Positions 22,156 to 42,136 of a stretch of DNA of 64,000 bases are shown here, piece after piece. How positions within the stretch are numbered: the stretch's first letter is position 1; every line of letters begins with the position of its first letter. The stretch lies in the NCBI GenBank assembly GCA_024399065.1, contig JAKSIB010000005.1, forward strand, positions 62,001 to 126,000, given 5' to 3'. A program made the translations under genes and the position numbers. The DNA comes from Fibrobacter sp. (GTDB lineage: Bacteria; Fibrobacterota; Fibrobacteria; Fibrobacterales; Fibrobacteraceae). Under the pieces are notes generated by a model, which made no database searches, was not told where the DNA came from, and saw nothing but the letters and a program-made list of their open reading frames with translations.

Positions 22156-22241
22156 ATGGCCCATTGAGGACTAAACTGGCATTCAATTCCCCAACAGGCC
22201 ACAAAATTCTTGTTTCCGATAGGACAATAGAGAATGCCAGT
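22156..22241 (-). ncRNA. Predicted H-type pseudoknot leader of tnpB, copy 1
   Basis: On the minus strand, ACTGGCATTC (22241-22232) pairs with GAATGCCAGT (22184-22175). GTGGCCTGTTGGGG (22202-22189), inside that loop, pairs with CCTCAATGGGCCAT (22169-22156) downstream: 14 pairs, four of them G-U. The second strand of helix 2 ends nine bases before the tnpB ATG. TATAAACG lies about 20 bases upstream (22262-22269). Copies 2 and 3 keep the pairing with different bases. Confidence 0.7.
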
Positions 22242-22351
22242 AATCCATTGTTCTACCTATACGTTTATACATTGTAGAAAAATATTTCAGATATGGCAAG
22301 TCGGCTATCATCTCACGGGCTAAAGACCCGTAAGTTTTCTCGCCGACAAAT

Positions 22352-22359
22352 TATAAACT
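22352..22359 (+). promoter_or_regulatory. Late-promoter motif TATAAACT at element edge
   Basis: TATAAACT lies 25 bases before the 189-residue gene. The first T is the terminal base of element 1 and ATAAACT is native flank. Confidence 0.7.
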
Positions 22360-22384
22360 ACATCAAAAGAACATTGGGTGACTT

Positions 22385-22954
22385 ATGGCTAAGAATTCAA
22401 AAGGAATCACTGCAGCACAAAATATGAAAAACTGGGTTGATCTAACTGGGGTCGTCCAGAAAAAACACCAAAACAAGCTAAAAAATGGCAAATACCCACG
22501 TATGGGATTCCCGGAATGGAATTTCGACAGCGCCGTTGGCCACAGTCACCCTATGGGAACCGACGCTGGATCAGGAAACGGCGGATTTGCCGGCGGGGCA
22601 AGCCTTACCGCTGGATTTGCACCGTCAGCGGTAGCAACCAGTTCAGGCCCAGTCGCCGCAGCACCATGTGGCGAATCGATCGAACCGTCCGACTTCAACG
22701 CAATCCTTGAACATTTCAAGGCAGAAAATCCGACATCGGCCGTAGTCGATAAAATCAAAGATATGTTCAATGCGTCACAGGATGGAAATTTGACACCTCT
22801 TATCCATGATTCTGAAGGCGTCGATACTGTTGCAGACATGGAAAATCGACCAACGGACGACACCCAGACATCAGCGTTGGCAGCAGCATGTGAAGCTGTC
22901 TTATACGCATTCAAGGCATACACTGGAGTCGATTACTTCAATTACAGAAAATGA
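22385..22954 (+). CDS. Small Gly/Ala-rich protein, probable virion component
   Basis: This 189-residue protein is not recognised. It has a basic N-terminus, a Gly/Ala-rich low-complexity centre (about residues 58-95) and an acidic helical C-terminal half. A late-promoter motif stands before it. Its stop codon is TGA, of which the last two bases are given by the end of the neighbouring IS-derived element; exact removal of that element would give TAA at the same codon, so the protein is unchanged either way. Confidence 0.7.
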   Translation: MAKNSKGITAAQNMKNWVDLTGVVQKKHQNKLKNGKYPRMGFPEWNFDSAVGHSHPMGTDAGSGNGGFAGGASLTAGFAPSAVATSSGPVAAAPCGESIEPSDFNAILEHFKAENPTSAVVDKIKDMFNASQDGNLTPLIHDSEGVDTVADMENRPTDDTQTSALAAACEAVLYAFKAYTGVDYFNYRK

Positions 22955-23033
22955 ACTACCACCCACTAAAGATGGGTGGGTTTCCCCGAGCCCATCTGTG
23001 GCATTACAGGCTTCCTGCTCAAGGTGTGCAACC
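22951..23033 (-). ncRNA. Solo right end / predicted guide RNA without tnpB
   Basis: This 83-base segment is homologous to the guide-RNA region of elements 1 and 2, keeps hairpin CCCATCTTTAGTGGG, and has no tnpB next to it. A transcript reading leftward would carry the guide TTTCTGTAATTGAAG from the end of the 189-residue gene. It lies downstream of the terminator at 23110-23183, so its source of transcription is unclear. Confidence 0.5.
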
Positions 23034-23109
23034 TCAAGTCTCTGAACCATAACTTTCCGCAGTCTGCTGTGTGGCAAAGCCATACAGCAACAAGCTGCTG
23101 GCCCATATT

Positions 23110-23183
23110 AAAAAATCTGGTCCATTCTGAATAGGTTAAGTAGTCATAAGACCATCAAAACTCATTCATCAGAATAGGGCCAG
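23110..23183 (-). terminator. Terminator of the LRR cargo operon
   Basis: On the minus strand two arms (23183-23169, CTGGCCCTATTCTGA, and 23130-23117, TCAGAATGGACCAG) pair with one bulge and are followed by ATTTTTT. The loop is long (38 bases). Confidence 0.65.
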
Positions 23184-23210
23184 TTTGTATGAAATATTGT
23201 TTACAGCCGA

Positions 23211-23339
23211 TTACTCTAGATTGGGTCGGTCCGAAATCATATCCAATTGATTCCTGTCCGGTTCCTCACGCTTCTGTTTCATCTCAGCAATACGTTGCTT
23301 GAACTTGGCTATTACTCGCTCTTTCGTTTCTTGATTCAT
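23211..23339 (-). CDS. 42-residue charged protein, LRR cargo operon
   Basis: The product is strongly charged and helical (MNQETKERVIAKFKQRIAEM, then KQKREEPDRNQLDM). It starts 18 bases after the LRR gene's stop and has an excellent ribosome site (TAGGAG, seven bases before ATG), which is the main evidence. A terminator follows. Function unknown; it is part of the element's cargo. Confidence 0.65.
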   Translation of the reverse strand: MNQETKERVIAKFKQRIAEMKQKREEPDRNQLDMISDRPNLE

Positions 23340-23356
23340 GATGATTTCTCCTACAG

Positions 23357-24376
23357 TTATTTTTTCATATCTCCACCCCAATATACTGGGATTTGAGAAC
23401 GTTCAATCTTGGCCTGCTCTGATGCATACTCGCCTGTTTCTGGATTGTAGCCGCAATTAGTGAAACAGTCACTATAAGATCTAGCGACTACTGCATTATT
23501 GTAGAAATCAAGCATTCCGGCCTCGACAGATGTGCAGCCTCGAAACATAGTATTCATTTTCGTCACATTGGATGTATCAAGCCGTGGAATGCTTGTTAGA
23601 GATGTGCATCTATAAAACATAAAACTAGTATTCGTCACATTGGATGTATCAAGTTGTGGAATGCTTGTCAGAGATGTGCAGTCTCGAAACATATCATACA
23701 TAGTTGTCACATTGGATGTATCAAGCTGTGGAATGCTTGTCAGAGATGTGCAGCCCCAAAACATGTCTTCCATATCCGTCACATTGGATGTATCAAGCTG
23801 TGGAATACTTGTTAGAGATGTGCAGCCCCAAAACATACGAGTCATACTCGTCACATTGGATGTATCAAGTTGTGGAATGCTTGTCAGAGATGTGCAGTCT
23901 CGAAACATACCATACATACTCGTCACATTGGATGTATCAAGCTGTGGAATGCTTGTTAGTAATGTGCATCCTTGAAACATACTCTCCATATCCGCCACAC
24001 TGGATGTATCAGCAAACGCAAGGAATGAATATTCTATTCCAGTATATGTCCTATACCAGTCCTCGGTATCAAGAGTCACGTCCACCACAAGTGAAGGCTT
24101 GCTATTCTCAACAACAGATACCGACACCTGACTTTCTTCCAGTTCATATATTTCCGCCAAAATACTAGGCGTGGTAAGGGTCTCAACAGCGTCCTCGTAT
24201 GACATCTCAAGTTCATCCAGCATTTCCTCGGTAATCATATACTTTGCCCTATATGTCCTAGGCGGAAGAATAATCGGTTCTGGTCCGGGTGGAACGGGCG
24301 TAGGGGAAGGAGTGGGCTGGTATGCTTGGTTTTCTAACCACATAACGTAAGCCATATGCATCAATGTTGGAGCCAT
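23357..24376 (-). CDS. BspA-type leucine-rich repeat protein, element cargo
   Basis: This 339-residue protein has three parts: a short N-terminal region with a Pro-rich stretch (PTPSPTPVPPGPEP), a domain at about 40-140, and seven BspA-type repeats of 24 residues (LTSIPQLDTSNVTxMxxMFxxC). The repeats are nearly identical in DNA as 72-base tandem units, a sign of recent expansion. The end (NCGYNPETG, then IPxxWGG) is like that of the LRR gene at the start of the window. No clear signal peptide or membrane anchor is seen. The start has AGGA and a late-promoter motif 32 bases upstream. It lies inside IS605-type ends, so it appears to be carried by a mobile element. A role in host binding is inference. 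Confidence 0.85.
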   Translation of the reverse strand: MAPTLMHMAYVMWLENQAYQPTPSPTPVPPGPEPIILPPRTYRAKYMITEEMLDELEMSYEDAVETLTTPSILAEIYELEESQVSVSVVENSKPSLVVDVTLDTEDWYRTYTGIEYSFLAFADTSSVADMESMFQGCTLLTSIPQLDTSNVTSMYGMFRDCTSLTSIPQLDTSNVTSMTRMFWGCTSLTSIPQLDTSNVTDMEDMFWGCTSLTSIPQLDTSNVTTMYDMFRDCTSLTSIPQLDTSNVTNTSFMFYRCTSLTSIPRLDTSNVTKMNTMFRGCTSVEAGMLDFYNNAVVARSYSDCFTNCGYNPETGEYASEQAKIERSQIPVYWGGDMKK

Positions 24377-24408
24377 AATATCATCCTATTGCTTGACATC
24401 ATATAGAT

Positions 24409-24416
24409 AGTTTATA
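24409..24416 (-). promoter_or_regulatory. Late-promoter motif TATAAACT before LRR gene
   Basis: An exact TATAAACT lies 32 bases before the LRR start and inside the mobile element. Confidence 0.6.
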
Positions 24417-24526
24417 CGTTAGTCAACTAGATTGACCATACATTCAAATTTTCAGCAAGGATATAATCAGCATCAGTGAGTTTTCTTGCTACGACTATTA
24501 TAATGTATGATTGATTATCAACAAGA

Positions 24527-24547
24527 AACCCCCTCATTGAGGGGGTT
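24527..24547 (-). terminator. Terminator of the 2103-residue gene
   Basis: A 9-base-pair perfect stem (AACCCCCTC with GAGGGGGTT) with a 3-base loop lies 14 bases after the stop. Only a short T-run follows. Confidence 0.8.
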
Positions 24548-24560
24548 ATTTCATTGTGTT

Positions 24561-27500
24561 TTAATCGTCGTATTCAGAATTATATACGGGTTCTTTTTCC
24601 GTCTTGTTTATTTTTTTGGGTTTCGGTTCAGTTTGTTTAGGTTGCGATGATTTCATGGACTTCTGACGCTTTGCGGGTTGCTTACCAACGACAGTGGAAA
24701 CGTCATCAATATCCTCTGTATCCACAACGGAATTACGTGGTTCCGATCCAGCAGCATGTACTTCAATTTGATACTCTTCACCAGAATCATCAACAACAGT
24801 TACACTAGACTCATCCGAATCATCGGATTCCGGCGCTGATTCAGGATCATTTGTAGATACGGGTCTAACAACCGGATTACGCACCTTATTCGCACGGCCA
24901 GAAGATTTAGCTTTCTTGGCATTAGTCGGGGTGGTAGTCTTAACCGGCGTCGGAACCTCTTCTTCGTCATCATCCTCGTCACCGTCATCAGCGTTAACGT
25001 CATAATGGTCGTTCTTAAATTTCAGTTCATCAAACTTCACCTCGCCCTTACTAGCAAGCTCAGTAATATATTGATCAACTGCATCAGAAAGCACTGCAAC
25101 ATCATCACTAGGTACAGCAGCAATCACATGAGCAATGATGCCAACCATTAAATTGCCATAAATAACCCCAAAAGGATCTATAGATACCATCTGGCATTTC
25201 GGATATGCCTGAATCTTGCCATTATCCATCAATGCAGCGATCAACTTTTTAATCTTGCTATCGTCAACGTCAGGACGTTCAGACATGACGGCAATCTGCT
25301 TATTTATATCGATGCCGGTATCATATGCAACAATAACCATATTAAGGTAAGGAATAACCGTCGTAATGTTCGCATGTTCATTCAAATCACCGGCCGATTC
25401 AGCAAGTTTCAATGCTTCGGACACAAAGTTTCTAAATGTGCGTTCATCGTACGATTCATTGAACATAGTAACAACAAAATCAGAACTGCCCACGGAATTC
25501 CTAATGTACCCAACCGAAGCTAACTCACGCATGACATTCTCAAAACCGGCGTCAGTCATTGCATTGAATGCCGTCGGGCCAAGACGCATGTGTCCGATAC
25601 GCTTAACAGTTGCTTCAGACGGCTTGATCGATCCAATCGCAACCGAATTTCCACCATTACTAAAGGATTCGGTAAACTTGGTGTACAACAATTGTGCACG
25701 TTGACCCATCGTAGAATCCGAATCACCATTACTGTACAATTCCCTCAGCAAAGCAACAATTGTTTTATACTGGTCAGACTTTGTATCTCCAAAGAATCCA
25801 TGTGGCAAACCAGATTCAGTGTCCAACTCAGTCAAAGATTCAAATATAGCATACATTTGCTGGCCGATTTTAGTACTCAGCAACTCATCACTATTATCAG
25901 ATGACCCGAAATACAAACTAGCAAAATGGTCAGCCATGTCTAATGAAACGGCATCAGGAATAGAAGCCAACACACTACACACGGAATACGCCCATTCCAA
26001 ATCAATGGCATTAGCTCTGTCAGCGGTTCGTGTAGGAGTAATCTTATTCATCTGCACAAGCATACGTTCCATATCTGAATGGAAATTTTGGTCATTTTTA
26101 CCATGGTCAGACGCATACTGAATCATACGGGCACGATTTTTATCAATCATCACATGAGCGGCTGCTTTTTGACCGGCATGGGTACCAGCTGCCACAATGT
26201 ATGATATAGGCGTATCCAGATCAGCAACCAAACGCTTGATCGAATCATTAACTACTTCACGAGTTTCAGTTGTCTCACGGCTATTTTCAGTCACATCACT
26301 TGTCGAATACACGGCAGAAAGAACTTTTTGGCCAACTACACGGCGAAGACTCTTTACAACAGCAATGATATCATCTTTCGTTATGTCAGCCGGTTCATTA
26401 ACTTCATGCGACAATTTATCACCGCCAAGGAAACCCATGATCGTATTCAACGACATTTGTTCACCGGCAGATGCAGCATCAGCCATAGCAATAGTCTGCT
26501 GTCCGTCATCATTCTGCTGGATTTCAAAAACACGTCCATTTTTGACACGTTCCTTAGACCCACCCTTTGTTGCATCCGACCCATCAGTCTTGGAATAATT
26601 CTTTACGTATGGATAAACAGGCTGTCCATTCATTACAGTAGTAAGGAACGTCATTAACTGATTGTAATCAGAATCCCCATTACGTTCATCATCAATCAAC
26701 GCATTAATCGCTTCACGCTGTAAATCGTTATCAGCCATATTACCATATAGGATATCGTTTCTAGCCATATTCTTATAAATAGAAGCTTCGCTACGGTCTA
26801 AACGGGTATTAGCATTATAACGTTCATCTGTTATACTACGATCAAAGGTTCCTATCATCAAACCTACAGAATATGCAAAATCAGCCAATTCCGGATTCGA
26901 TTCCATTTCAGTAACCATATTATCGTAATATGATTCATGGGCATTAGCCACTGCACCGGTTGGAGCGTTACTATATTTTTTCACGCCACGGAAACGGGCA
27001 CGGGCAAAGGCATCTATTGCATTATCTTCACTGTCGTTAAAATCGCCATGTTTCTGAATACCGTTGACATTATTAACAAATCGACTTAACGTTTCCTTAG
27101 AATCGGGTGTCAACACTCCACCTAAATACGACAATACAGATACAGCCGATGAAGCCCATCCATAAGTATCATCCGAATAAGTTTCATCCGTTGTAGCTGA
27201 CTCCAATTTTTCAATTGCATAATCAGCGGCTGATATCGAAACTGGATTTCCACTATTCTTTTCGATAATACGCCTAATAGATTTCAATGAGCTCACCAAG
27301 TCCCTTACAGTATCCGCATACATATTGTATTTCGAGAAGATAAAGGTTCCGATCACTAAAATAATTTGTGCAACGGCAGTGTCATCAGACATAGTGAACG
27401 GTAACACTTTACCATTACGATTCAACTTCTTAATAATCATCGACGCAGTATCGATAGCCGCACAAGCTCGCTTTAAACTTTCACCAGAAACACGACTGCT

Positions 27501-30500
27501 TGCAACAACGTCACCGATCAAATGAAGATCAACATCAGTAGTATTCATCACCAATGCATTCAATTTATCAACGGATTCATTATATAATGCTTCACGTTCG
27601 GCCCAGCCGGTTTTATACGTTTCGATTTCACGTTTGATTTCACTTGCCGTGCCATTATCGTTGTCTTCAACCGCTTCTTCATAGGCAGTTTCATACCCCT
27701 TGATAATGTGACCATACTCGATCTTATCACGTTTCGCTGAATATATATCATCACACAATGACACGATCTGGGTTGCATACTTAGTAGCGACTCCAGTATG
27801 TTCGTCAAGTTCTTGCTTAGTTTGCGCAAGTGCGGTTTTAAATTCATTCGCATTGTACGATTTAGTATTATCAGTATAATTCAGCTCACGAACAGGGTCT
27901 GGGTTAACGTCAAAGTTATCCGCATATTCAGTCGGATCAATAGCGTCATTAACATCTTCCAAACTAGCGGCATTGTAAATACGGCTCATCTGGCGAATTT
28001 TTTCAATGACTGCACGTAATGTAGAACAGGTACAATCAACAGCCGAGAATACACTTCGCATTGGCTTGCCATCTTCGACATCAACGCTTGCCATAGTATT
28101 GGCGGTCATGATAATCTGAGAGATATCAGCCATTGTCAAGCCAGATGATAAAATTTCATGATGAATATTAACCAATGTATTAGACACATTACCGGTTTCA
28201 TCTATGACAGCGGAAATAATACGTTCAGCACGTTCACTAAGATTAGATGCAATGTTTACCAGCGTAGCGTCTAATGTACTATTCGCAGTATCAACCTGAT
28301 TTCTAGCCAATTCGGTTTTAGTTCCATCCGGATTGATCAAGCTATACACCAAATACTGTTTGATATCAGGTAACAATTCCTTCACGTCATTGATATGTTT
28401 ACCTAACGTTCCATCCAGTCGATAACCAGCTAGAGTACTAATGCGTGAAAAGACATTCTTAATTGATTGTTCAACTCGTCCGGCGTCAGCAGAATCGTTA
28501 TCACGCATTACTGACTGGACCAGCATTTGCATTGGCATCAAACGTTCGGCAACAACAACGGCATTGGCTGCTGCAACCACATGGCCAGCAGTTTTTTCAT
28601 CAATTTCAGATGTTTCAACTGAATTCAACAATTTCAGTAACGAATCCGCCCTTGATACGCCTTTCAGAATTTTAGGCGTATTATCGACAATTTTATCCTG
28701 ACGGAATAAACGACCGGCGATAGCCATTTTCATATTGGCAATGCATTCACGGATTCGATCGTCAGGAATCTTATCATTAAACATAAGATTCACATTAGGA
28801 ATATTTGCGTCAATGCCATCACGAACAATACTAGATGTTTTTAAAATACCAAATTCACGTAATGCGTCTCGTAAAGACTGGCATGTATTGTTAATACGTT
28901 TACAGTAATTATCGATGACAGAAAGTCTGGCCATAGAATCATACTCAAACCGGTCTTTACGGCTATCGCCCGTATCTGGGCCAACAGGGTACGTCATTCC
29001 GGCAATAGCAGCCATTTGTTCATAATCAGAGTCAGTGTATTTTTCCGACGCCATGTGAAGACGTTTTAGATCATTCTGAAAATTGACATTGCCTAAACGT
29101 TCAGTCTTCCTTTGCTGCAGTAAATTGATTTCGGATGACGACGGTCGTTCAGCAGCGGCGATCTCATGGCCCAAATGTTCCGATAGGCCTGACATACCCT
29201 GTACATCAGCAAGAGTATTCCCGGACAAAGTCGTGTATGGAACCAATCCATGAATCAAATACCACGATTTCGTCTTTTCACCGGATACGCCAGTTTTTAC
29301 CAACGCTGGGGCAATATATTCACGATTTGCATCGTCATAATTCACTTCTGCAATCGGAGTGTTGCTTACTAATTGACCGGAAGCCGATTGTTCAAACCCC
29401 TTAGTAATTACAAATGCTTCTCCATTATTTGCAATCAACGATGAAAATGTTTCACCATTATTAGTAAGACCCGTACGATTAGCGTCAATTGTTCGATTTG
29501 TTGTATCCTCAGAACCCAAGCACGGGTTTCCACTTACATTAGAAATCGTAATATCAGCTTCACCAAGCTTACCACTTACCGAACCATTCATATCATACAA
29601 AAATTCTTTCTTGATACGATTCAAGATATGCGGCACATAAGAATTGGCCTGAATGTTATGTCCAGCCGGTCTCGGGAAGATATTCAAAAAATCATCATAA
29701 TCATCAATTGAATCAATAAAGTCAATGATGGCAAGACGGACGTTATTAGCCTGAATTGTATCGGAAGCCAATGTTTCAAAAATAGCATCGATCGATGCAC
29801 CAAGGTCGGTGGCCAACATAGTAGTCTTATATGACGGCAGAATATTGAGCTCATGCAAAATATATCCAAGGAAATACAGCATATCCTTTGATTCGATATT
29901 AGCACTACTGTCTGATTTTTTATTGTCTTTATGAAGGTCCGACGCAATCAATTCGCCTTTATTGGCAGCAAACATCTTGAACACTTCACCAGCGGTACAT
30001 TTTGTCTTAGCCGTAATGAGTCCGAGCTGGGTATCATTACCTTTGCTAGGATCCTTTACCACTATCGTTTCACTACCCGGTTCGGATTTAGACATTCGTT
30101 CTATACCACGATACAACAGTTCAGATGAATCAGATGATTGCGAACTAACTGACGCATTAACATAGGCACGCAGCATATTTCCGGCAGCAACCCATACGGC
30201 AGCATCATAATCAGACTCGCTGCAACCAGTAAAACCGGCTTTTTCAGCTGCATTCACTAACTTTGTTATAAAAAACTCGGCGGTCTTAATAATTTTTGTC
30301 ACACCGTTCATGTGTGTGGCCCATGAATTCTGCGTTGCGCCGTAATCATCAGCAACTTCCATACCCGGTGCCGTAGGAGTATGAATCTCAAGCGTTTCAT
30401 ACACTGCTTCAGACATAGCATGGGCCGCTTTTACCAATTCAGATCTCGATGCGTCGGCCGTCGAAATGATATATTTATAGATTAGCGGTTCAACCGGGCC

Positions 30501-30872: not shown

Positions 30873-30898
30873 ATATCCCTGCCACAGTAGTTTACACA

Positions 30899-30906
30899 AG
30901 TTTATA
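30899..30906 (-). promoter_or_regulatory. Late-promoter motif TATAAACT
   Basis: TTATAAACTTG on the minus strand, 26 bases before the start of the 2103-residue gene. Confidence 0.7.
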
Positions 30907-30938
30907 ACATTGTGCCAGATATTTTAGCATGGCTGATT

Positions 30939-31044
30939 ATGAACTACCCACCCACTAAAGATGGGTGGGTTTCCCCGTGCCCATCTGTGGAATTACAGGA
31001 TTCCTGCTCAAGGTATGCAACCACACCAGTGTCAACAGGCTTTA
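30939..31044 (-). ncRNA. Predicted TnpB guide RNA of element 2
   Basis: This is the right-end region homologous to that of element 1, overlapping the end of tnpB. The flank that would serve as guide begins AATCAGCCATGCTAAA. The 5' limit is approximate. Confidence 0.5.
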
Positions 31045-32191
31045 GCGATTCATCGCTTCCCTTAGTCCGTGAGGTATTTCGACTTAAACGAATGCGATTT
31101 CCTTCGTTCAGTATGTTGAGAGCTGCGTTCTGGTCTCTATCTAGCCAAGTACCACAATTCGGGCAAGACCACTCTCTATCAGCTAGAGTCAGCGTGGTGT
31201 TCTTGTAACCACAGCAGTGGCATAGCTTGCTGGAAGGATAGAACGAACCTACCTTGATGTAGTATCTACCGTACCAGAATGCCTTGTAAGCAACCATATT
31301 GCAGAACCGTCCAAATGACGCATCTGCAATAGCCTTGGCTAACTTGTGGTTCTTCAACATATTTGACGGCTTCAGGTCTTCGGAGTAGATGTATTGGTTC
31401 TCTACTATCAGTCTCTTGCTGACCTTGTGCTGGAAATCAATTCTCTGGTTTCTTATCTTTTCGTGTACCAGAGCGACACGATGCTTCTGCTTCCGATAGT
31501 TATGCGAGCCTTTGGTACAATGCGACAGCTTACGCTGTTCCTTTGCCAACTTTTGCTCACTCTTTCGGAAATACTTTGGATTTTCTATAACGCAACCATC
31601 GCTGTCTATAAGGAAATCCTTGATACCGAGATCAAAGCCTATCTCGTTATCATTCGGTGGCAGCTTCATCCGGTCATCATCCATTTCCACTAGGATGGAG
31701 CAGAAATACTTGCCTGTTGGGGACTTGGATATCGTCAAACTGCATACTTTGGCTATAGGCAATGACTTGAAATCATAGTCCTGTCGGAACTTGACCAATC
31801 CGGCCTTCGGAATGAATATGCGGTCATTCCTAACACCACGAATCAATGTTTCAATGGTCTTAGGCATCATTGCATTGCGGTAAGACTGCTTATCACATTT
31901 CTTCTTGAACTTCGGGTAACGTGATTTGCCATCAAAGAACTTCTGGTATGCACCCTTGGCATCCATATAGGCATTAGCCATTCCCTGACTGTCGGCTTCC
32001 CTCATCCAAGGCCATTCCTCCTTGAACGAGGCCAACTTAGGCGTAAATGATATACGAGACTCTTCAAAGATTGACTTCTTCAAGTCTATGAACTGGTTAT
32101 AGATGAAACGGCAAGTGCCGAAGGTCTTGTTGAAGAACTTCTCCTGTCTTACTGTCGGGTACAACCGTATCTTGAATGCCTTGTTTATCAT
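30944..32191 (-). CDS. tnpB: TnpB, RNA-guided nuclease, second copy
   Basis: This 415-residue TnpB is nearly the same as the one at 20900-22147, with scattered substitutions. RuvC residues are intact: Asp in GFDLGIKDFLID, Glu in YSEDLKPSNM, Asp in DRDQNAALNIL. The zinc finger CHCCG...CPNCG is intact. The stop TAG lies in the right end. The open frame without decay in both copies suggests the nuclease is still under selection or recently arrived. Its predicted pseudoknot leader has different bases but the same pairing as in element 1. Confidence 0.95.
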   Translation of the reverse strand: MINKAFKIRLYPTVRQEKFFNKTFGTCRFIYNQFIDLKKSIFEESRISFTPKLASFKEEWPWMREADSQGMANAYMDAKGAYQKFFDGKSRYPKFKKKCDKQSYRNAMMPKTIETLIRGVRNDRIFIPKAGLVKFRQDYDFKSLPIAKVCSLTISKSPTGKYFCSILVEMDDDRMKLPPNDNEIGFDLGIKDFLIDSDGCVIENPKYFRKSEQKLAKEQRKLSHCTKGSHNYRKQKHRVALVHEKIRNQRIDFQHKVSKRLIVENQYIYSEDLKPSNMLKNHKLAKAIADASFGRFCNMVAYKAFWYGRYYIKVGSFYPSSKLCHCCGYKNTTLTLADREWSCPNCGTWLDRDQNAALNILNEGNRIRLSRNTSRTKGSDESLKPVDTGVVAYLEQESCNSTDGHGETHPSLVGG

Positions 32192-32199
32192 ATACAGAA

Positions 32200-32282
32200 A
32201 TGGCTAGTAGCGGACTAATTTGGCGTTCATTCCACTACCAGCCATCAAAAACTCTTTGATTTCGTGGATTGGAGAACGCCAA
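32200..32282 (-). ncRNA. Predicted H-type pseudoknot leader of tnpB, copy 2
   Basis: On the minus strand, TTGGCGTTC (32282-32274) pairs with GAACGCCAA (32228-32220). ATGGCTGGTAGTGG (32245-32232) pairs with CCGCTACTAGCCAT (32213-32200): 14 pairs with two G-U. Compared with copy 1, bases change on both sides of the helices so pairing is kept. TATAAATT lies 19 bases upstream (32301-32308). Confidence 0.7.
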
Positions 32283-32308
32283 TTATCCTATCCACCATAT
32301 AATTTATA

Positions 32309-32467
32309 TTACTTATTTTGCGTTTTAGTTATGTTACCCTTGTCATCCACCATACATACACCCATCTTGGATTTTCTCATCATAGCAGCATCGATGCCAG
32401 TCATTCCATTCTTGGAAATCATTTCTTCAATGACCTTATCCGTGTCCAATTTCAATTGTTTATCCAT
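32309..32467 (-). CDS. Possible 52-residue protein inside element 2
   Basis: The open frame (MDKQLKLDTDKVIEEMISKN, then GMTGIDAAMMRKSKMGVCMV and DDKGNITKTQNK) looks like a real protein in composition, with a predicted helix and a small beta hairpin. The ribosome site is weak and element 1 lacks it. It may be cargo of the element or a remnant. Function unknown. Confidence 0.45.
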   Translation of the reverse strand: MDKQLKLDTDKVIEEMISKNGMTGIDAAMMRKSKMGVCMVDDKGNITKTQNK

Positions 32468-32564
32468 ACGACATACCACATTAAATATATCATTAAACTA
32501 TATTATTTTCATCCGCAATTCATCTCACGGGCTAAAGACCCGTGAGTTTTCTTGCTACATCTAT

Positions 32565-32572
32565 TATAAACT
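32565..32572 (+). promoter_or_regulatory. Late-promoter motif TATAAACT at element edge
   Basis: TATAAACT lies 26 bases before the 1067-residue gene. Its first T is the terminal base of element 2. Confidence 0.7.
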
Positions 32573-32598
32573 TAGGGAAAACATGCCGGTGGGATTTT

Positions 32599-35500: not shown

Positions 35501-35802
35501 TCGACGTTGACGCCATTCTAAAAGCAGACCCGTCCATCATCAAGAAATACATGGGCATGACTGTCGACGAGCTGGCCAACCAGTATGAAGCAAACGGTAA
35601 TCAAATGCCGTACTATCTGCTTTATCCGAAGCTCGGGAATGGCATAAGCTACGAAATATACGATAAGTCTACGGGATCAATATTCAGTTCCATCTTCAGA
35701 ACAAAACAGAACTGCAAGGCAGTAAAAGTCAAGTTCAAGGGACATGATGGCCGATTCATAATGCCCAAAAGCGTAGCAAATGCACTATACACAGAAACTT
35801 AA
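32599..35802 (+). CDS. Large unknown protein with Pro/Ala linker and shared C-terminal domain
   Basis: This 1067-residue protein is not recognised. The first 640 residues are helical and polar. A Pro/Ala/Thr-rich linker follows (about 640-730, with PAAPAAPAAPAAPA). The C-terminal 270 residues resemble the C-terminus of the next protein (35900-38983): both have a LxQFYxxL segment, then a helical stretch, then P(Y)YLLxP. The ATG at 32599 is chosen over an upstream in-frame ATG (32542) because the latter lies before the late promoter and inside the element end. A terminator follows. Late control suggests a virion protein. Confidence 0.75.
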   Translation: MVINQNILNAAFPNNKDAQQQFSTIAEKYGNILDTYFDLDSNDDTYMNDLIECANELNKWGILTNGTAFKLFGFINDICGGVVPDNLSEDTLLDINDIISSRGVSDRSAEIYSNYINSILHDSLLGVQTNIHDIINETSRSGFNILTPPEPITGDATEDSSSQILSNYGITAPATKILDAFKQNSTDDDTAARKYVLFEKWTTTPSGEKIPKQQQSHIQACLNKLTSLSDNELKELCNTNPNPNKLRTLLSQLTITPQTLLSTIKNSGNENHAQQPKQPTEPPAGGGQDKPKQAIVSDYAQQIAQFIADSGKYVSNIDAKDLATKIVGSNIPIDEMISIFSNSDAKTESDLQTLIKHKTENSINDLTTANLLSKAFGERPANIDSFVTQMPVLYTGVDQLPLYILNAETIKRIQKIAANIKSLANSKDCGFNDNIANAIQFLIDMPDKTQHESYPVANIKQIIKQMQDNNTLADISANGTVIEKICLSKSNNTLSEFNKWVTAIKNAGIDLSTADASIIDFVKKLNATDDLTKKSTQTELGKLLKQSTPPLAPANPTPPVNPQTKTVKLADLFNTDIKSNPSFVKAITEYMRKHGNTTGEITGTQDEINVIVTEIRNLANQNNPTGTIQTPVKPVTPAVQPQQTNPTAPVAPTTPTAPATPAAPVAPTAPTSPAAPAAPAAPAAPAVQSPSAPASQTGTQPASIPAPGPANQTTSPDPRTTYQPVYDAIKAHAMSPQQADLASTMADDIFMHPGHDADAYFKLVNMTSSMYPVIFDLLDKADPANGHKETMAPSEANTNDLSTVEFINNPMSQHKPKRKLFTDFTKPAGMTMGSADIWDAPIIESMGFPFVNFSNETVRDVLTGDDKAKKSAYNKLKSILKDINIANKHVGGIFDFFTDKPIKLLKEFAGKGNRCKPNWLRVETNDLNSASPDSLIMVTPIKQFTRKLEYNKPQQVTMTMLTQFYKLLDVDAILKADPSIIKKYMGMTVDELANQYEANGNQMPYYLLYPKLGNGISYEIYDKSTGSIFSSIFRTKQNCKAVKVKFKGHDGRFIMPKSVANALYTET

Positions 35803-35807
35803 AAAAT

Positions 35808-35832
35808 AGCACCGGATTTCCGGTGCTTTTTT
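35808..35832 (+). terminator. Rho-independent terminator
   Basis: AGCACCGG, loop ATTT, CCGGTGCT and TTTTTT directly after the 1067-residue gene. Confidence 0.92.
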
Positions 35833-35866
35833 AATTATCATGACCTGTATTTATTGGGGCAAACAT

Positions 35867-35874
35867 TATAAACT
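35867..35874 (+). promoter_or_regulatory. Late-promoter motif TATAAACT
   Basis: TTATAAACTTAGG lies 25 bases before the 1027-residue gene, just after a terminator. Confidence 0.72.
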
Positions 35875-35899
35875 TAGGTAAAACTACCTAAGGGCTATT

Positions 35900-38800
35900 A
35901 TGAAAGACAATACCTTACAGAAACTGATTGTTGGTTCAACACGTTCCTGTGGCGACGAAATTACAATCGAAGGCTATGATCCTCAGTATCATGCAAGTAT
36001 CCGTTCTATCATGGAATCGGTTGATCAGAAAAAACTGAATATCGTCATCGATGAATGTGATGATGCATCTAACCCGGGTTTCCGAATCACGGCGGTGAAT
36101 GAATCTACTGATATGGTAAATGTCATTCGTAATATTCTAGAAGCAGAATCATCCGTAGTCAGCGTATCTCAAGAAGATATAAACGCCGGCAAGGAAAAAC
36201 TAGCTCGTCTAAAAGACAGTATTGCCAAAGCTGAAGCAAAAGAACTAAATCTTGATACGGCAAAAAAGTTAAATATGGAGTTTACGCCAGCAATACATAA
36301 AGCACTATACACTACCTTAAATCACGGTGATAGCGAAGCACACGATATTAGCAATGAAATCACCACGCTATATAATCAAAAATGGGCCCCATTGTATCGT
36401 CAAATCACCGACACTACACCGTCCAAACAGACATCAATACAGGCGGTCAAACAAGAAATCATCTCCATTAAGAATGAGGTTGACAATAACGCACTAAATG
36501 AACCGGAAGCAGAATCCAAAATTGAAGATATTGTCAATAATCAATCATCTGATTCTAGTAAAAAAACTATTTTGGCCGCACTTTCTAAGCTTGCTAAAAA
36601 GGCTTCCGAAAAGGCTTCCAACACAAAATCAAAGTTTGGCACAGTACTTCAAAACGTTGTTGCCAAATTTAACCAAAATGATGCCGACGAGCTAGACTAT
36701 AACACTAATGACGATGGCGTTACAGCGAAAGATTTTATCGATTCGGTCCAAGACACAATCAAAGCGATTGATTATGCAAAGAATACCGACGACTTAGACA
36801 ATTACGTAAGTAATTTGGAACTCCAATCGTGGGAAGCTGAAGCGAAAAAAACAGACAATGTCGATCTTCAGCAAGCTATTGACAAAGTCAAGGCAGCAAT
36901 CGAACAAAAGCATAATAAGTTTGTTGCTAAAGAAGGTAAACAAGCTAACATCGCTAACATCAGGCTAGATGATCCGCAGGATGATACAGTAGACGCAGAA
37001 ACCAAGCAAACTGCCGGCGGCAATGCACAATCTGAACAGGCAAATCAGCAAGAAGACCAATCATTTAAACAAATGGTTGAACAACTCGGCAATAAAATCG
37101 AAACACATGAAGGATCATCTGAAGACCAAATTGATCAGGATTTCATTGATTCGTTCAACGCAAAAGCTGATCAAATCGTTGGTGAAATTTCGCAAAAAGT
37201 ACATACCGAAGAACAGCTAAAAGACGCTATCGAAGGTTTTAAAAATCTTAATAAAATCATTTCAGAAGAAGGAGCATACGCACCAATGAACCCAGCATTG
37301 CAGAAAATCAACGGCGCAATACAGCAGAAATCCGCTGACCTAAATAAGGCAAATAATAACCCTCAGGACCAAAAAGCTGCCGAACCAAAGGTTGACGAGA
37401 TCACGCCTACCGAAGAAACACCCGAGGAATTAGTTAAGCCTACTGACGACACACCTGCAGAAGAAAACCCAGTCGAGCCAAAGGTTAACGAAACCAAGCC
37501 TACCGAAGGCAAAATACCCGAGGAAACAGTCAAGCCAGCTGGAGACAAACCTGCAGAAGAAACTAAGGTAGCAGAGACAAAGGAACCTGCTAAAAAGGAA
37601 GAACCTGTTAATATCGAACCACCGGCATCATCTGAACAACCGGCGCCGGAAAAAGCCTATGAACCAAATGAGTTCGATGAAACATACCCAGCGATATCAA
37701 AAGCAATCAAGCGTATGTCAGCCGGCAATGTAGACACAATGAATGATCTACGAGACAAGATCCAGAACAGCAAGGTATTGGAAAATGACGAATGGAAAAA
37801 CGCCACCAATAATTTCACCGACAGTGCGCTTGTCGCCCAGAAGCTGATCCCGACCATCGCAAAGCATTTCGGAATCACACTGAATCGTTCAGTGGATAAT
37901 GAAGGCAACCTTCACGAAGAATCGTCTAGCCAAACAGTAAAGCACGGACGTTTCGTTGTGCCACAGGGTTGGAACAAACAGCCTGAAGATTACGGTCAGG
38001 CTGCAGTGGTAACCCAGTTTGGTTTACCTATGCTAAATCTTGATTCCGAAACCATCAAAGACCTGAATAGGGAAGATTTCGATAAGGACCTCATGAAGGA
38101 CTTTATCAAGGAATATCACCCGACCGCTATTGCAAATGCACTTGGAACCGGCAAAGGAAAAGCTCACCAGCGCTTGATGGCAATCCTTCAGTGCAAGGGT
38201 AAGCCATACATTCACCGAATGATCCGTGTAGACAATCCGGAATCAATCGGTGGTGAAAATTCAAGTAAAGTCACTTGCCGTCCAATTGACGAACGTGCCA
38301 AGATGGAATCCATCAACAACATCGTCGCCGCATTGGTAGAAGCAACGGCAGGACAGCACAAGGGAATCATCCTTGAAGCCGCCGAACGCACCCCGAACCG
38401 CAAATATCTTGAAAGTTTTGCCGGTTCCCGTGTGAACGAACTGATTGAATCATTCCGTGCAAACCCGGATACGGCATTGCTGGAAGCATTTGTGTATCAG
38501 AAACAGGATGAACTAGAAGCAGCATTTGATAGTAACCCAATGTTTGAAGCATTCTGGAGTGGATCACAATCTGGTTCCGTAAGCAGTGCATTCAAGGGAC
38601 CTGTCGACGTAGAACTCGGCTATCTTCGCCAATTCTATACAGTAGCAATCGCATCGCCAAACCGTGAATCCGAAAAGAACCTGTACCTAAAATACTTGAC
38701 CGCAGAAGATATCGCTAAGATGAAGGAATCGCTCGGAATCAAGCAGGAAGAAAACAAGAACAAGGAAGAACTGCTCAAGATGTACTTGGGCAAGAATAAC

Positions 38801-38983
38801 AACATTCCTCCATATTACTTGCTGATTCCACGTAAGAATCCCCGTGACTTCCTCCGTATTACCAACAAGGCGGTACTCCGTGGCTATTACGTCGTAAAGC
38901 ATCGTCAAGGTGGAAAGGGAGGCCATTTCGGCGCCTACTTCATCAAGGATGATTGGAAGAAGAACATGTTTGCATTGGGTTAA
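35900..38983 (+). CDS. Large charged protein, paralogous C-terminal domain
   Basis: This 1027-residue protein is not recognised. Residues 1-480 are charged and helical with coiled-coil character. Residues about 490-590 are a Glu/Pro/Lys-rich disordered linker with loose repeats (EPKVxETxPTEExPEE). The C-terminal 430 residues are folded and share with the preceding protein a LxQFY...PYYLLxP region. Short LLEA, LIES and ILEA sequences near residues 820-880 resemble phage prohead-protease sites, but this is only suggestive. It is followed three bases later by the SWIM protein, so both are in one late operon. Confidence 0.75.
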   Translation: MKDNTLQKLIVGSTRSCGDEITIEGYDPQYHASIRSIMESVDQKKLNIVIDECDDASNPGFRITAVNESTDMVNVIRNILEAESSVVSVSQEDINAGKEKLARLKDSIAKAEAKELNLDTAKKLNMEFTPAIHKALYTTLNHGDSEAHDISNEITTLYNQKWAPLYRQITDTTPSKQTSIQAVKQEIISIKNEVDNNALNEPEAESKIEDIVNNQSSDSSKKTILAALSKLAKKASEKASNTKSKFGTVLQNVVAKFNQNDADELDYNTNDDGVTAKDFIDSVQDTIKAIDYAKNTDDLDNYVSNLELQSWEAEAKKTDNVDLQQAIDKVKAAIEQKHNKFVAKEGKQANIANIRLDDPQDDTVDAETKQTAGGNAQSEQANQQEDQSFKQMVEQLGNKIETHEGSSEDQIDQDFIDSFNAKADQIVGEISQKVHTEEQLKDAIEGFKNLNKIISEEGAYAPMNPALQKINGAIQQKSADLNKANNNPQDQKAAEPKVDEITPTEETPEELVKPTDDTPAEENPVEPKVNETKPTEGKIPEETVKPAGDKPAEETKVAETKEPAKKEEPVNIEPPASSEQPAPEKAYEPNEFDETYPAISKAIKRMSAGNVDTMNDLRDKIQNSKVLENDEWKNATNNFTDSALVAQKLIPTIAKHFGITLNRSVDNEGNLHEESSSQTVKHGRFVVPQGWNKQPEDYGQAAVVTQFGLPMLNLDSETIKDLNREDFDKDLMKDFIKEYHPTAIANALGTGKGKAHQRLMAILQCKGKPYIHRMIRVDNPESIGGENSSKVTCRPIDERAKMESINNIVAALVEATAGQHKGIILEAAERTPNRKYLESFAGSRVNELIESFRANPDTALLEAFVYQKQDELEAAFDSNPMFEAFWSGSQSGSVSSAFKGPVDVELGYLRQFYTVAIASPNRESEKNLYLKYLTAEDIAKMKESLGIKQEENKNKEELLKMYLGKNNNIPPYYLLIPRKNPRDFLRITNKAVLRGYYVVKHRQGGKGGHFGAYFIKDDWKKNMFALG

Positions 38984-38986
38984 TCT

Positions 38987-39979
38987 ATGCAGAAAAATTT
39001 GCTGTTATCACAATTAAGCCGATATCATGCTATGCTAGAAGCCACCGCAGCCCAGTTAAGGGCTGCCGGTGACGACAGCAAAAAGCACGACATTTCATGT
39101 AATCTGGTCGGGGTATCCCCTGATCCATCAGGAAACGCCGTCCTCGAATGGAATGCTTCATCGGAATCGAACCCAAACGGCACACCACACAAGGTATATA
39201 TCGATCTCATAACTAAGCCCGGTACAACCTTGTTTTCTCTTGCGCAGGGAACGACAAAGATGTCCGACAAGCAGCAAATCATCAGAAATGCCGATGTAAA
39301 GTATTTCTGTACCTGTAAGGACTTCCAATATGGCGGTCCTTGGTACAATGCAACCCATATAACGAACAGTCTATCCGAAGGTCATACCCCGGAAACAGGC
39401 GAATCGGACAGTAGTCGAAATACACCGCCAGACAAGCGAGATCCGGAGCGCAAGCATCTGTATTGCAAGCATGTCAAGACGGTTTTCACACTTCTAGGTA
39501 CAAATACGCTAACTATCATGAAGATGGCCAAGAATACTGTCGTTCAGCCGCCAAAGCCTGAACAAGCAAAACAAGCCGCTCAGGCGGAACAGTCTGAACC
39601 AAATAAGCCTGTACCGCAAACAGACCCGGCCGATCGCACCGCATCAATGACTGAGGATGAATCCAAGCAAGTTCTAAACAAGCTCGGAATGATAGAATCA
39701 CAGGTAAAGACACCTGAAATCCAAAAGGGACTTGATGACATGGCGGCAAACATTGAACCGGGCCAGATGACCGATGATGTGAAAAACGCTCCATTAAAAG
39801 GTCTAGTTCCCTATGATGAGCCTGATTATGTCGCTAAACAACGTGAGGAGGACGACGCAATGGATACCCAAGAACAAAAACCGTATAGCCAGTTCCCGGA
39901 TTATGAAATGGATGCATCAAACTCCATGTTCGATGTTCCGCTTGATGATGACGAGGAAACTAATCCTCCGGCGCCATAG
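38987..39979 (+). CDS. SWIM-type zinc-finger protein
   Basis: This 330-residue protein carries a SWIM-like zinc site: CTC at about residue 108 and CKH at about residue 160 (pattern CxCx(n)CxH), within an N-terminal domain of about 180 residues. SWIM fingers bind DNA or proteins. The rest is Pro/Gln/Glu/Asp-rich and probably disordered. It is cotranscribed with the 1027-residue gene and its end overlaps by 20 bases the end of the opposing 163-residue gene. The insert between the two halves of the zinc site is long (about 50 residues), so the family call is moderate. Confidence 0.65.
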   Translation: MQKNLLLSQLSRYHAMLEATAAQLRAAGDDSKKHDISCNLVGVSPDPSGNAVLEWNASSESNPNGTPHKVYIDLITKPGTTLFSLAQGTTKMSDKQQIIRNADVKYFCTCKDFQYGGPWYNATHITNSLSEGHTPETGESDSSRNTPPDKRDPERKHLYCKHVKTVFTLLGTNTLTIMKMAKNTVVQPPKPEQAKQAAQAEQSEPNKPVPQTDPADRTASMTEDESKQVLNKLGMIESQVKTPEIQKGLDDMAANIEPGQMTDDVKNAPLKGLVPYDEPDYVAKQREEDDAMDTQEQKPYSQFPDYEMDASNSMFDVPLDDDEETNPPAP

Positions 39980-40451
39980 TGACTAATTCGCAGGGTGTCA
40001 AGTACGTATTATAATTCCATTGATACGTACATCCCACGAAAACACCACCAATCAAATCACGCAGAATCCTAACTGCGTGGTTTTTTGTAATCATACGGAT
40101 AATATCCATATAGATCTTATCGCATTGTGAACGACCAAACGCATTAAATCCCGATCCGGCATAAAGACCGGCAAGCAGGAAAGACGCACAATTATAGTCC
40201 TTAGACCCACATTCAGGGAATAACAAGCCCATAAATGAAGGGAATGGCGATCCACTTATCGTAAACCCCTTATGGATAGTAAAATGGAACGTATCAACCA
40301 TATTATGATGTCCAAACGATAAATTCAACCCAACCTCAAGGTCTTCAGTCAATTTATACCCGTCAGCAACCTTTACCATGGCCAGCTTAGAAAATTCATA
40401 GGATTGTACACTGTAAATTTCGTCATCTTCGGATAAATCAAAGTCGTTCAT
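39960..40451 (-). CDS. Small protein, possibly DUF1353-like
   Basis: This 163-residue protein has the layout of DUF1353: an early beta region with FTIHKGFTISGSPFPSF, then a helical segment SFLLAGLYAGSGFNAFGRSQ with CDKIYMDIIRM. The usual HD pair of that family is replaced by AG, so activity, if any, may differ. An AATAAACT motif lies 24 bases upstream. It converges on the SWIM gene with a short overlap. Confidence 0.6.
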   Translation of the reverse strand: MNDFDLSEDDEIYSVQSYEFSKLAMVKVADGYKLTEDLEVGLNLSFGHHNMVDTFHFTIHKGFTISGSPFPSFMGLLFPECGSKDYNCASFLLAGLYAGSGFNAFGRSQCDKIYMDIIRMITKNHAVRILRDLIGGVFVGCTYQWNYNTYLTPCELVTMAPED

Positions 40452-40475
40452 AAAAACCCACTGGCAATCTGTAAA

Positions 40476-40483
40476 AGTTTATT
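40476..40483 (-). promoter_or_regulatory. Late-promoter-like motif AATAAACT
   Basis: One mismatch to TATAAACT, 24 bases before the 163-residue gene and directly after a terminator. Confidence 0.5.
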
Positions 40484-40496
40484 ATGAAACTAGATC

Positions 40497-40523
40497 AAAA
40501 AAAGGGTTGGCAAACGCCAACCC
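40497..40523 (-). terminator. Rho-independent terminator
   Basis: On the minus strand GGGTTGGC, loop GTTT, GCCAACCC and a run of seven T. It ends the 74-residue gene. Confidence 0.92.
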
Positions 40524-40547
40524 GTAAATATTCTTATGACCTGCAAA

Positions 40548-40772
40548 TTATGCAAACGGATTTTGTAAATTTTTATTTGCAATGGCGGCAAGTTCTGCCA
40601 CGGCCATATCATACCTCTCATCAACTTCTTCATCAGTCATGTCTTCCGGATTCACGACGCTAGATTCATGTAGGACATCGAATGCTTCGCAAATCGTGTT
40701 CACTACAGATTCCATCTTTTCGCTGCCATCACTTAGGCGATTGACATAAGACTTAAACAATGCATTATCCAT
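40548..40772 (-). CDS. 74-residue acidic protein
   Basis: The product is acidic and helical, with no recognised family. Its own late-promoter motif and terminator bracket it, making a one-gene unit. Upstream is the native end of the split polymerase gene, whose stop codon overlaps the promoter. Confidence 0.65.
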   Translation of the reverse strand: MDNALFKSYVNRLSDGSEKMESVVNTICEAFDVLHESSVVNPEDMTDEEVDERYDMAVAELAAIANKNLQNPFA

Positions 40773-40798
40773 AAAACCACCATAGGTTATTTTACATA

Positions 40799-40806
40799 AG
40801 TTTATA
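40799..40806 (-). promoter_or_regulatory. Late-promoter motif TATAAACT
   Basis: TTATAAACTTATG on the minus strand, 26 bases before the 74-residue gene. Its TTATAA includes the last codon and stop of the split polymerase gene. Confidence 0.7.
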
Positions 40807-40880
40807 ATGCAGCGGATAGGTTTTCGCCTGACATAGCATAATCACGTTCCATTTCACGATAAATGGACTTCTCAGTGTAT
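40802..40880 (-). pseudogene. Detached 3' end of the polymerase-like gene
   Basis: On the minus strand this 79-base piece encodes YTEKSIYREMERDYAM, then SGENLSAAL and a stop. Joined to the main part (42628-44108) by exact removal of the element 40881-42627, it gives one open frame of 519 residues (1481 + 79 = 1560 bases). It has no start of its own. Confidence 0.85.
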
Positions 40881-40990
40881 TTGACATACTCCCACGACTA
40901 AAGTCGTGGGATTCTGGGAGTTGCTACGGTGAGCAACATATCCCAAAGGTAGATGCCCCTACCTTACATAAGTTTCGAGCGGCATTCAGG
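40881..40990 (-). ncRNA. Predicted TnpB guide RNA of element 3
   Basis: The right end of the element overlaps the end of tnpB and closes with the terminal hairpin and TCAA. The flank that would serve as guide begins ATACACTGAGAAGTCC, the polymerase gene sequence. The 5' limit is approximate. Confidence 0.5.
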
Positions 40991-42027
40991 TCTCTATCGT
41001 GATGACATCCGCAAACGGGACAAGTCCATTCACGAATAGATACATCCTTTAATAGATGATTCTGATAACCACATTCACTACATAGCTGACTAGAAGGATA
41101 GTATTTATCGGCATACATAACGGTCTTACCAGTCTTGTGTGCCACATACTCCAGTATGTTCAAGAAAGTGTTGAACCCGAAGTCATACATCGACTTCTTG
41201 TACTTCTTGGACATATTAGCTAAGTCTAGCGTCTCGAATACCATCACATCGTAGTCACGGCACATTTGCCGTGCCAGCTTCCAGTGCATGTCCAAACGCT
41301 GATTAGCCACCTTCTCATATAGCTTCTGCAATGTACGCAGCGAACCTCGTTTTCCTTTAGACCTACGGTATTTCTCCGATAAGTTCCTTAAAGAATTGAG
41401 GTTTTTTCGCAGTAGCTTTGACATACTACAATCATCACCATTAGAGGAAACCAAGAAGTCATGTAGACTGAAGTCGAAACCAACGATTTCACCCGATTTA
41501 GTCCATTCTTCGTATACTACTTCTTGCTCTACGACAATGTATATGTAGAAGCCATTACTTTTACGCTTGACGGTCAAGGTCTTGACCTTGCCATTAAAAT
41601 CCCTACTATTCCAATAGGGAAAATCTTTTTTGCCTATCTTAACACGATTAAAATCATGAAACTTATATCCAGCTTGCTTGGTCGTGAACGACCTATACTT
41701 CGCAGTTTTCTGGAAATGCGGTGGATTAGTCTTCTTACCAGCCTTTAGATTGGCGAAGAACAACCGATATGCTCGGTCTATCCTGTCCGTGATGTCTTGA
41801 ATTGCTTGTGAAGGAACCTCATTCCACTCTGGATAGTGTTTCTTTGACTTCGTGAGATGTTTCTGCAACTGATACTTGTTCAACATCTTATGATAGATGC
41901 TATAGTACCTACGGTGCAGAGCAATGCAATGGTTATATATCCGACCAGCAATAACAAGTATGTTGTCGAGATACTTCAAGTCATCCCGATTGTACAGCTT
42001 GTACTTGTATGTCTTCAATTCAACCAT
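40924..42027 (-). CDS. tnpB: TnpB of element 3, distant from the other two
   Basis: This 367-residue TnpB belongs to a different branch from those of elements 1 and 2. RuvC residues: Asp in GFDFSLHDFL, Glu in VFETLDLANM, Asp in HDRDLNAARNL. The zinc finger is CSECG...CPVCG. ATG 42027 (MVELKTYKYKLYN) is preferred to TTG codons just upstream. No Shine-Dalgarno site is seen; the region is occupied by helix 2 of the predicted pseudoknot, and a TATAAACT motif lies upstream of that, so tnpB may be transcribed apart from tnpA. Confidence 0.92.
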   Translation of the reverse strand: MVELKTYKYKLYNRDDLKYLDNILVIAGRIYNHCIALHRRYYSIYHKMLNKYQLQKHLTKSKKHYPEWNEVPSQAIQDITDRIDRAYRLFFANLKAGKKTNPPHFQKTAKYRSFTTKQAGYKFHDFNRVKIGKKDFPYWNSRDFNGKVKTLTVKRKSNGFYIYIVVEQEVVYEEWTKSGEIVGFDFSLHDFLVSSNGDDCSMSKLLRKNLNSLRNLSEKYRRSKGKRGSLRTLQKLYEKVANQRLDMHWKLARQMCRDYDVMVFETLDLANMSKKYKKSMYDFGFNTFLNILEYVAHKTGKTVMYADKYYPSSQLCSECGYQNHLLKDVSIREWTCPVCGCHHDRDLNAARNLCKVGASTFGICCSP

Positions 42028-42038
42028 AGGCAACAAGA

Positions 42039-42118
42039 AATGCCAGTTAGACGCTTATTGTGGTGGTTAGCATCCAACTGGCACTCAAAGTCCGTTCTTG
42101 ATATACGATAACCACCAC
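42039..42118 (-). ncRNA. Predicted H-type pseudoknot leader of tnpB, copy 3
   Basis: On the minus strand, GTGGTGGTTA (42118-42109) pairs with TAACCACCAC (42069-42060). AGTGCCAGTTGGAT (42085-42072) pairs with GTCTAACTGGCATT (42052-42039): 14 pairs with three G-U. Order, helix lengths and distance to tnpB match copies 1 and 2, while the paired bases are unrelated. TATAAACT lies 19 bases upstream. Confidence 0.7.
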
Positions 42119-42136
42119 GAAATCGCATATACTAGA

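Follow-up and report, generated by a model that had tools for sequence, protein, structure and literature searches.

A predicted kissing-loop leader shared by unrelated nuclease genes of T4-like phages associated with Fibrobacter

The DNA considered here is a window of 64,000 nucleotides (nt) from a Fibrobacter metagenome-assembled genome (MAG; assembly GCA_024399065.1, contig JAKSIB010000005.1, positions 62,001 to 126,000), in which a structured element of about 105 nt, the leader, lies directly before each of three tnpB genes. The whole contig, C5, measures 164 kb. In its RpoB protein the MAG is 94% identical to a Fibrobacter MAG from sheep abomasum and 93% identical to one from yak reticulum. 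C5 consists of phage DNA, since it carries a T4-type (gp23-type) major capsid gene together with phage replication genes, the latter recognised by eye. The tnpB products are TnpB-family RNA-guided endonucleases of the IS200/IS605 type. Among 60 related genomes, a clear match to each tnpB model was found in one genome from outside the genus, with a marginal match in one congener, a scarcity which suggests that the window copies are essentially phage-borne here. The genes, in window coordinates, are as follows.

20900 to 22147, minus strand: tnpB of element 1, family A, 415 amino acids, ATG at 22147
30944 to 32191, minus strand: tnpB of element 2, family A, ATG at 32191
40924 to 42027, minus strand: tnpB of element 3, family B, ATG at 42027

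An earlier note on this DNA had drawn an H-type pseudoknot of two helices before each gene. Both helices are real. The first is here called K and pairs 22241–22232 with 22184–22175, 32282–32274 with 32228–32220, and 42118–42110 with 42068–42060; the second is the stem H2, which has 17, 18 and 18 positions in elements 1, 2 and 3, with one mismatch each in elements 1 and 2. The topology did not stand, because a third helix that had been missed, H0, encloses the 5' strand of K, and the two-helix arrangement that defines an H-type pseudoknot is thereby replaced. Judged by sequence comparison, the leader is an intramolecular kissing-loop complex of two tandem hairpins: H0, a linker of 14–17 nt and H2, with the two loops paired to each other by the covarying helix K. 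In the window leaders H0 has 9–14 base pairs (bp), H2 17–18 bp and K 9–10 bp, with loops of 12 nt in H0 and 12–13 nt in H2. The parts are listed below, K5 and K3 being the strands of K in the loops of H0 and H2; E-values refer to R1, a covariance model restricted to H0 and H2.

22156 to 22257, minus strand: whole leader of element 1 (H0, K and H2), R1 match at G000:C5:84145-84256, E 8e-10
22244 to 22257, minus strand: element 1, H0 5' strand
22218 to 22231, minus strand: element 1, H0 3' strand
22232 to 22241, minus strand: element 1, K5, in the H0 loop
22175 to 22184, minus strand: element 1, K3, in the H2 loop
22186 to 22202, minus strand: element 1, H2 5' strand
22156 to 22172, minus strand: element 1, H2 3' strand, ending 8 nt before ATG
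32199 to 32295, minus strand: whole leader of element 2, R1 match, E 2e-10
32286 to 32295, minus strand: element 2, H0 5' strand
32264 to 32273, minus strand: element 2, H0 3' strand
32274 to 32282, minus strand: element 2, K5
32220 to 32228, minus strand: element 2, K3
32229 to 32246, minus strand: element 2, H2 5' strand
32199 to 32216, minus strand: element 2, H2 3' strand, ending 7 nt before ATG
42038 to 42130, minus strand: whole leader of element 3, R1 match, E 1.5e-15
42122 to 42130, minus strand: element 3, H0 5' strand
42101 to 42109, minus strand: element 3, H0 3' strand
42110 to 42118, minus strand: element 3, K5
42060 to 42068, minus strand: element 3, K3
42069 to 42086, minus strand: element 3, H2 5' strand
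42038 to 42055, minus strand: element 3, H2 3' strand, ending 10 nt before ATG

These structures are not expected by chance. For elements 1 and 3, none of 200 dinucleotide shuffles exceeded the best two-helix score. For element 2 a simple two-helix finder took a rival pairing (6 of 200 shuffles) and a three-helix search was needed. The latter gives the three elements z-scores of 8.7, 6.4 and 4.1, and dinucleotide shuffles essentially never match the observed three-helix scores, confirming all three sites. Folded without K, the window leaders reach -37.8 to -41.9 kcal/mol (z -4.4 to -5.2). Eight shuffled copies of the window gave no match at the threshold passed by the three real sites, while a two-helix pseudoknot scan of contigs C5 and C15 and most of C31 and C57 found, away from leaders, only two low-scoring matches (window 56641–56733, plus strand; L134, 1872–1776, minus strand).

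The proposal that covariation marks a selected single-stranded structure holds when extended to 50 distinct leaders, and comparison thus shows both the fold and its conservation. A MAFFT alignment of 21 leaders contained changes on both sides of 27 of 35 pairs, and RNAalifold recovered H0 and H2 unaided. When the 55 R1 matches, 50 of them distinct, were aligned with the model, 34 of the 35 pairs had changes on both sides; all eight pairs of H0 are doubly changed. Over the three helices there are 521 doubly changed cells against 147 in shuffles, and none of 500 shuffles reaches 521. The shuffle control carries no correction for relatedness; a control in which partners are slid by 1–3 columns keeps the relatedness, and there the signal collapses, with pairing falling to about 40%. 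Although K lies outside the aligning model, 449 of its 450 cells (99.8%) are paired, all by Watson–Crick pairs, with 122 double changes. H2, by contrast, has G-U pairs in 67 of 424 cells (about 16%) and no A-C mismatches, so the strand that folds is the coding strand. Among 46 leaders modelled individually, by a script that misfitted a few folds (L153, L158 and L176), nearly all have an H0 loop of 12 nt and an H2 loop of 12–14 nt; two TnpB leaders (L005 and L055) have a minimal version with loops of 7 and 9 nt.

The absence of any G-U pair from the 450 cells of K might be explained at the level of DNA, if template switching (quasi-palindrome correction) had perfected the inverted repeats with no selection acting on RNA. 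H2, however, is the longer and closer inverted repeat and keeps its wobbles, when repair should have perfected it too. Loop lengths and the distance to the AUG are moreover constant, and a single functional class of gene follows, all of which makes such an artefact highly improbable. A structure formed in single-stranded DNA during IS200/IS605 transposition deserves no more credence. G-T wobble is possible in single-stranded DNA, and the leader strand is the transposed strand, as generally understood for the family. The leader is fixed in position to the start codon, however, and not to the element ends, which have separate hairpins of their own, as listed here with the tnpA gene of element 3.

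22312 to 22334, minus strand: left-end hairpin of element 1 (right-end hairpin at 20907–20926)
32524 to 32546, minus strand: left-end hairpin of element 2 (right-end hairpin at 30951–30970)
42595 to 42614, minus strand: left-end hairpin of element 3 (right-end hairpin at 40891–40910)
42149 to 42547, minus strand: tnpA of element 3, Y1 transposase; the R1 search found no leader before it

Nor did a crude pattern test find insertion-sequence end hairpins at the loci of leader-bearing homing endonucleases or of a 577-amino-acid TnpB (family D), and a role of the leader in transposition is unlikely. An orphan right-end hairpin at 22962–22981, whose core sequence matches that of the right-end hairpins of elements 1 and 2, is the remnant of a further copy. 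Elsewhere in the window, at 36–1397 and 23357–24376, lie phage genes that contain 'LDTSNVT..MFxGC' repeats in tandem and look BspA-like by eye.

The covariance-model search suggested in the earlier note yields 55 strong copies of the leader. R1 was run over whole records and gave 37 matches at E<=1e-6 in 20 viral records, nine in the MAG, two in 30 other TnpB-bearing viral records and seven in 14 further records. Some records are near copies and most were picked for TnpB relatives, so that the totals are no census, although the search within each record is blind to genes. In all, 49 copies precede TnpB-type genes and five precede homing endonucleases, making 54 of 55 nuclease-type; the remaining one precedes no gene. 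Assignments here are profile matches, some of them weak, in partial sequence collections. The TnpB types belong to at least six divergent families: A (elements 1 and 2), B (element 3), C (the L005 type), D, E (about 405 amino acids) and G (L240); a weakly assigned RuvC-like protein (L179) is counted with them. The family D protein has a Cas12f1-like TNB domain and was missed by a PF01385 search. Homing endonucleases behind leaders are of the HNH_3 (L183), NUMOD3 (L178) and HNH (L180, phrog_655) types, and two leaders (L163, L164) precede DUF7487 proteins, one with a weak PD-(D/E)XK signal. In the copy before no gene (L162; G066:15448-18556) a full leader is followed by about 900 nt which lack an open reading frame, appear non-coding and have no convincing Rfam match.

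A scan of IMG/VR by pattern, independent of protein, gave 34 stretches, six with an R1 match; four of these are already-known leaders, and the other two (L203, L220) also precede TnpB genes. In the control set of 30 other TnpB-bearing viral records, both true copies stand before nuclease genes. Up to five strong copies occur per viral record, and contig C5 has six leaders. Among the collections searched, the leader was seen only in T4-like phage contigs of the Fibrobacter MAG and in related viral contigs. No R1 copy was found in T4, Aeh1, Lak-A2, a Parabacteroides phage or Geobacillus virus E3, nor any copy in 167 other Fibrobacterota genomes; a first scan of genome contigs found no relative, and blastn of the leader against INPHARED phages gave no match. 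One weak candidate (L184, R1 E 0.006) was rejected as a terminator-like false match. Another weak match (L181; G074:133000-135400) has the three-helix layout and precedes a 285-amino-acid gene with no nuclease match and its own SD-like (Shine–Dalgarno-like) sequence; it is possibly a solo leader left after loss of a nuclease. TnpB genes also occur without a leader in the same MAG: L011 (C5, 151 kb), L012 (C15) and L001 (C31). The family D gene on C5 (L126:4625-6367, minus strand; about 130.4–132.2 kb) adjoins the T4-type major capsid gene, a position which recalls that of T4 segD between genes 23 and 24.

This distribution bears on another proposal of the earlier note, that the structure processes the guide RNA or binds TnpA or TnpB. 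All three window copies do precede tnpB, as would suit a part of the guide-RNA system or an autoregulatory target of TnpB. The TnpB guide RNA (reRNA or omegaRNA) would however be expected with tnpB only and at its 3' end, whereas the leader is 5' and also precedes HNH and PD-(D/E)XK homing endonucleases, families that to our knowledge do not use guide RNAs. Nor do leaders follow TnpB families in approximately unbiased (AU) tests. Such a role is already largely refuted and would now be very surprising. The link to a reported IS605-orfB motif has also failed. The IS605-orfB-I motif (RF03065) is likewise structured and tied by name to IS605 orfB/tnpB genes, but it spans 214 positions, and the genome contains no match to it even at an E-value of 10. 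No family of Rfam 15 matches the leader in cmscan, permissive E-values giving chance matches only. Among the papers searched, those that mention both TnpB and kissing loops do not deal with such a leader; other literature searches were uninformative here.

Comparison of the leaders among themselves shows that they behave as a module which unrelated nuclease genes of these phages have exchanged, because the leader tree mixes nuclease families. Monophyly of the leaders is rejected both for TnpB family B (AU p 2e-4) and for family C (3e-7). In supported clades of mixed origin, element 2 groups with leaders of PD-(D/E)XK-type endonucleases, element 3 and the NUMOD3 leader each group with family C, and an HNH leader groups with family B. 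With 109 columns the alignment is short, which leaves branching details soft, although non-monophyly is strongly supported. Element 3 and a family C gene have leaders with 81% identity, whilst the proteins encoded behind them are only distantly related.

Each window leader is preceded by a putative promoter motif. The window contains 12 copies of TATAAACT, a sequence resembling the T4 late motif TATAAATA, where 3.4 would be expected, and they are nearly always found before genes.

22263 to 22269, minus strand: element 1, TATAAAC, T4-late-like motif and putative promoter, 12 nt before H0
32302 to 32308, minus strand: element 2, TATAAAT, putative promoter
42138 to 42144, minus strand: element 3, TATAAAC, putative promoter, between tnpA and tnpB

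The first T of the motif mostly lies 12–16 nt before H0, a spacing close to that between motif and +1 in T4 late promoters, and transcription would then begin close to H0. A 52-amino-acid open reading frame (32309–32467, minus strand) between the left end and the leader of element 2 stops just before the TATAAAT motif. Several further leaders (L175, L177–L181, L183) have TATATTT-like or other motifs upstream in place of TATAAAC, the same leader being joined to different promoter types.

At the other end, H2 mostly stops 6–16 nt before the AUG. The zone from -20 to -9 is 12% unpaired in leaders against 48% in 23 phage genes, a comparison in which 6 nt of coding sequence were included for leaders and 40 nt for phage genes; the AUG itself is mostly free (unpaired 0.57). 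Pairing to the anti-Shine–Dalgarno (SD) sequence is weak at nuclease starts, with a mean of -2.6 kcal/mol against about -4.7 for nine phage genes. An upstream open reading frame or leader peptide was considered and rejected: a start codon falls at the 5' base of H2 in 42 of 46 leaders, yet its SD energy is -2.5 against -3.2 kcal/mol in shuffles, and the frame stops vary.

T4-like phages restrain homing endonucleases through leader structures (PMC2988022; PMC3014915), and those of T4 I-TevI, segB and Aeh1 mobE sequester the ribosome-binding site (PMC2988022). By analogy, we lean towards the view that the leader is a cis-acting translational control element for selfish nucleases; translation control was also the best of the options offered in the earlier note. 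Comparison shows the fold, its position, its association with nuclease genes and its exchange, whereas the start of transcription, the repression of translation and any relief of it are inferred. The mRNA would fold from about its transcription start into H0 and H2 with their loops paired by K, usually over 9–10 bp, giving a rod of some 35 bp if the helices stack. H2 would lie over the 30S landing zone from -20 to -9, with no strong SD beside the AUG, and because this zone is covered and the SD weak, the rod most likely holds nuclease translation low or conditional. Relief, if any, would have to come from elsewhere, through a factor, helicase activity or co-transcriptional kinetics, as the promoter motif lies upstream of the structure, unlike in I-TevI.

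Several points weigh against translational control of this kind. Although -20 to -9 is 88% paired, no conserved SD is seen inside H2, so that occlusion would be steric, and with the motif upstream of H0 transcripts from it would keep the structure and no relief is visible. Structure beside an AUG could also activate translation. Finally, a repressor needs only a hairpin, and the conserved loop lengths and wobble-free K hint at protein recognition or a mechanical role.

The first of these, in which a trans-acting protein of phage or host (or a host ligand) binds the kissing rod as operator of one regulon of selfish nucleases, is a minority possibility that we take seriously. It would account for the fixed geometry of 12- and 13-nt loops, for some loop bases conserved across unrelated genes (TT before K5, WWTA after K3) and for the several leaders per genome. 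Against it, no candidate protein has been identified and there is little invariant primary sequence. A second alternative, somewhat more doubtful, makes the leader a translation activator or mRNA stabiliser: a 5'-terminal rod might block 5'-end-dependent decay or, like the pseudoknots of some replication genes, present the start codon. The probable beginning of H0 near +1 and the mostly free AUG would suit it, and initiation-enhancing structures are known from T4 genes 25 and 38 (PMC3014915), but -20 to -9 is buried and simple hairpins would be enough for 5' protection.

Among known systems, the hairpins of I-TevI, I-TevII, I-TevIII, segB and Aeh1 mobE (PMC2988022) come closest to the leader of these phages. 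Both are 5' leader structures in RNA, situated where translation begins on genes for selfish nucleases in T4-like phages, and both have a late-type promoter close by, a putative one in the present case. The T4-type structure is however a single hairpin, whereas the leader has two with kissing loops and no conserved SD in the stem, and shares its fold and sequence among unrelated families, TnpB included. In T4 the late promoter is so placed that late mRNA escapes half of the stem, while transcription from the motif upstream of H0 would not bypass the structure. The seg43(25) leader of Aeromonas phage 25 (PMC2988022) likewise has a very stable hairpin directly upstream of a homing-endonuclease ribosome-binding site and leaves the SD unburied, but it is a single hairpin on a single gene, without a kissing loop. 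The T4 gene 32 leader is also a phage mRNA pseudoknot that affects translation initiation; that pseudoknot is a small one, 67 nt upstream, to which gp32 binds (PMC3014915), whereas the present fold abuts the AUG and precedes nucleases.

A more speculative extension, to which we give only limited weight, is that promoter and leader travel together as a mobile cassette which any incoming selfish nuclease (TnpB, HNH or PD-(D/E)XK) may acquire and which one phage or host factor reads. If so, the phage genome would govern all its parasites together, as a single regulon with a kissing-loop operator. The leader appears in any case to be an undescribed class of structured RNA with strong covariation, and as a shared, exchangeable mRNA leader it links RNA-guided TnpB with protein-guided homing endonucleases. 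It is also a search handle for divergent nucleases, both TnpB family D and the homing endonuclease genes having been reached from the RNA alone. The limits that phages and their parasites place on nuclease expression thus become directly testable.

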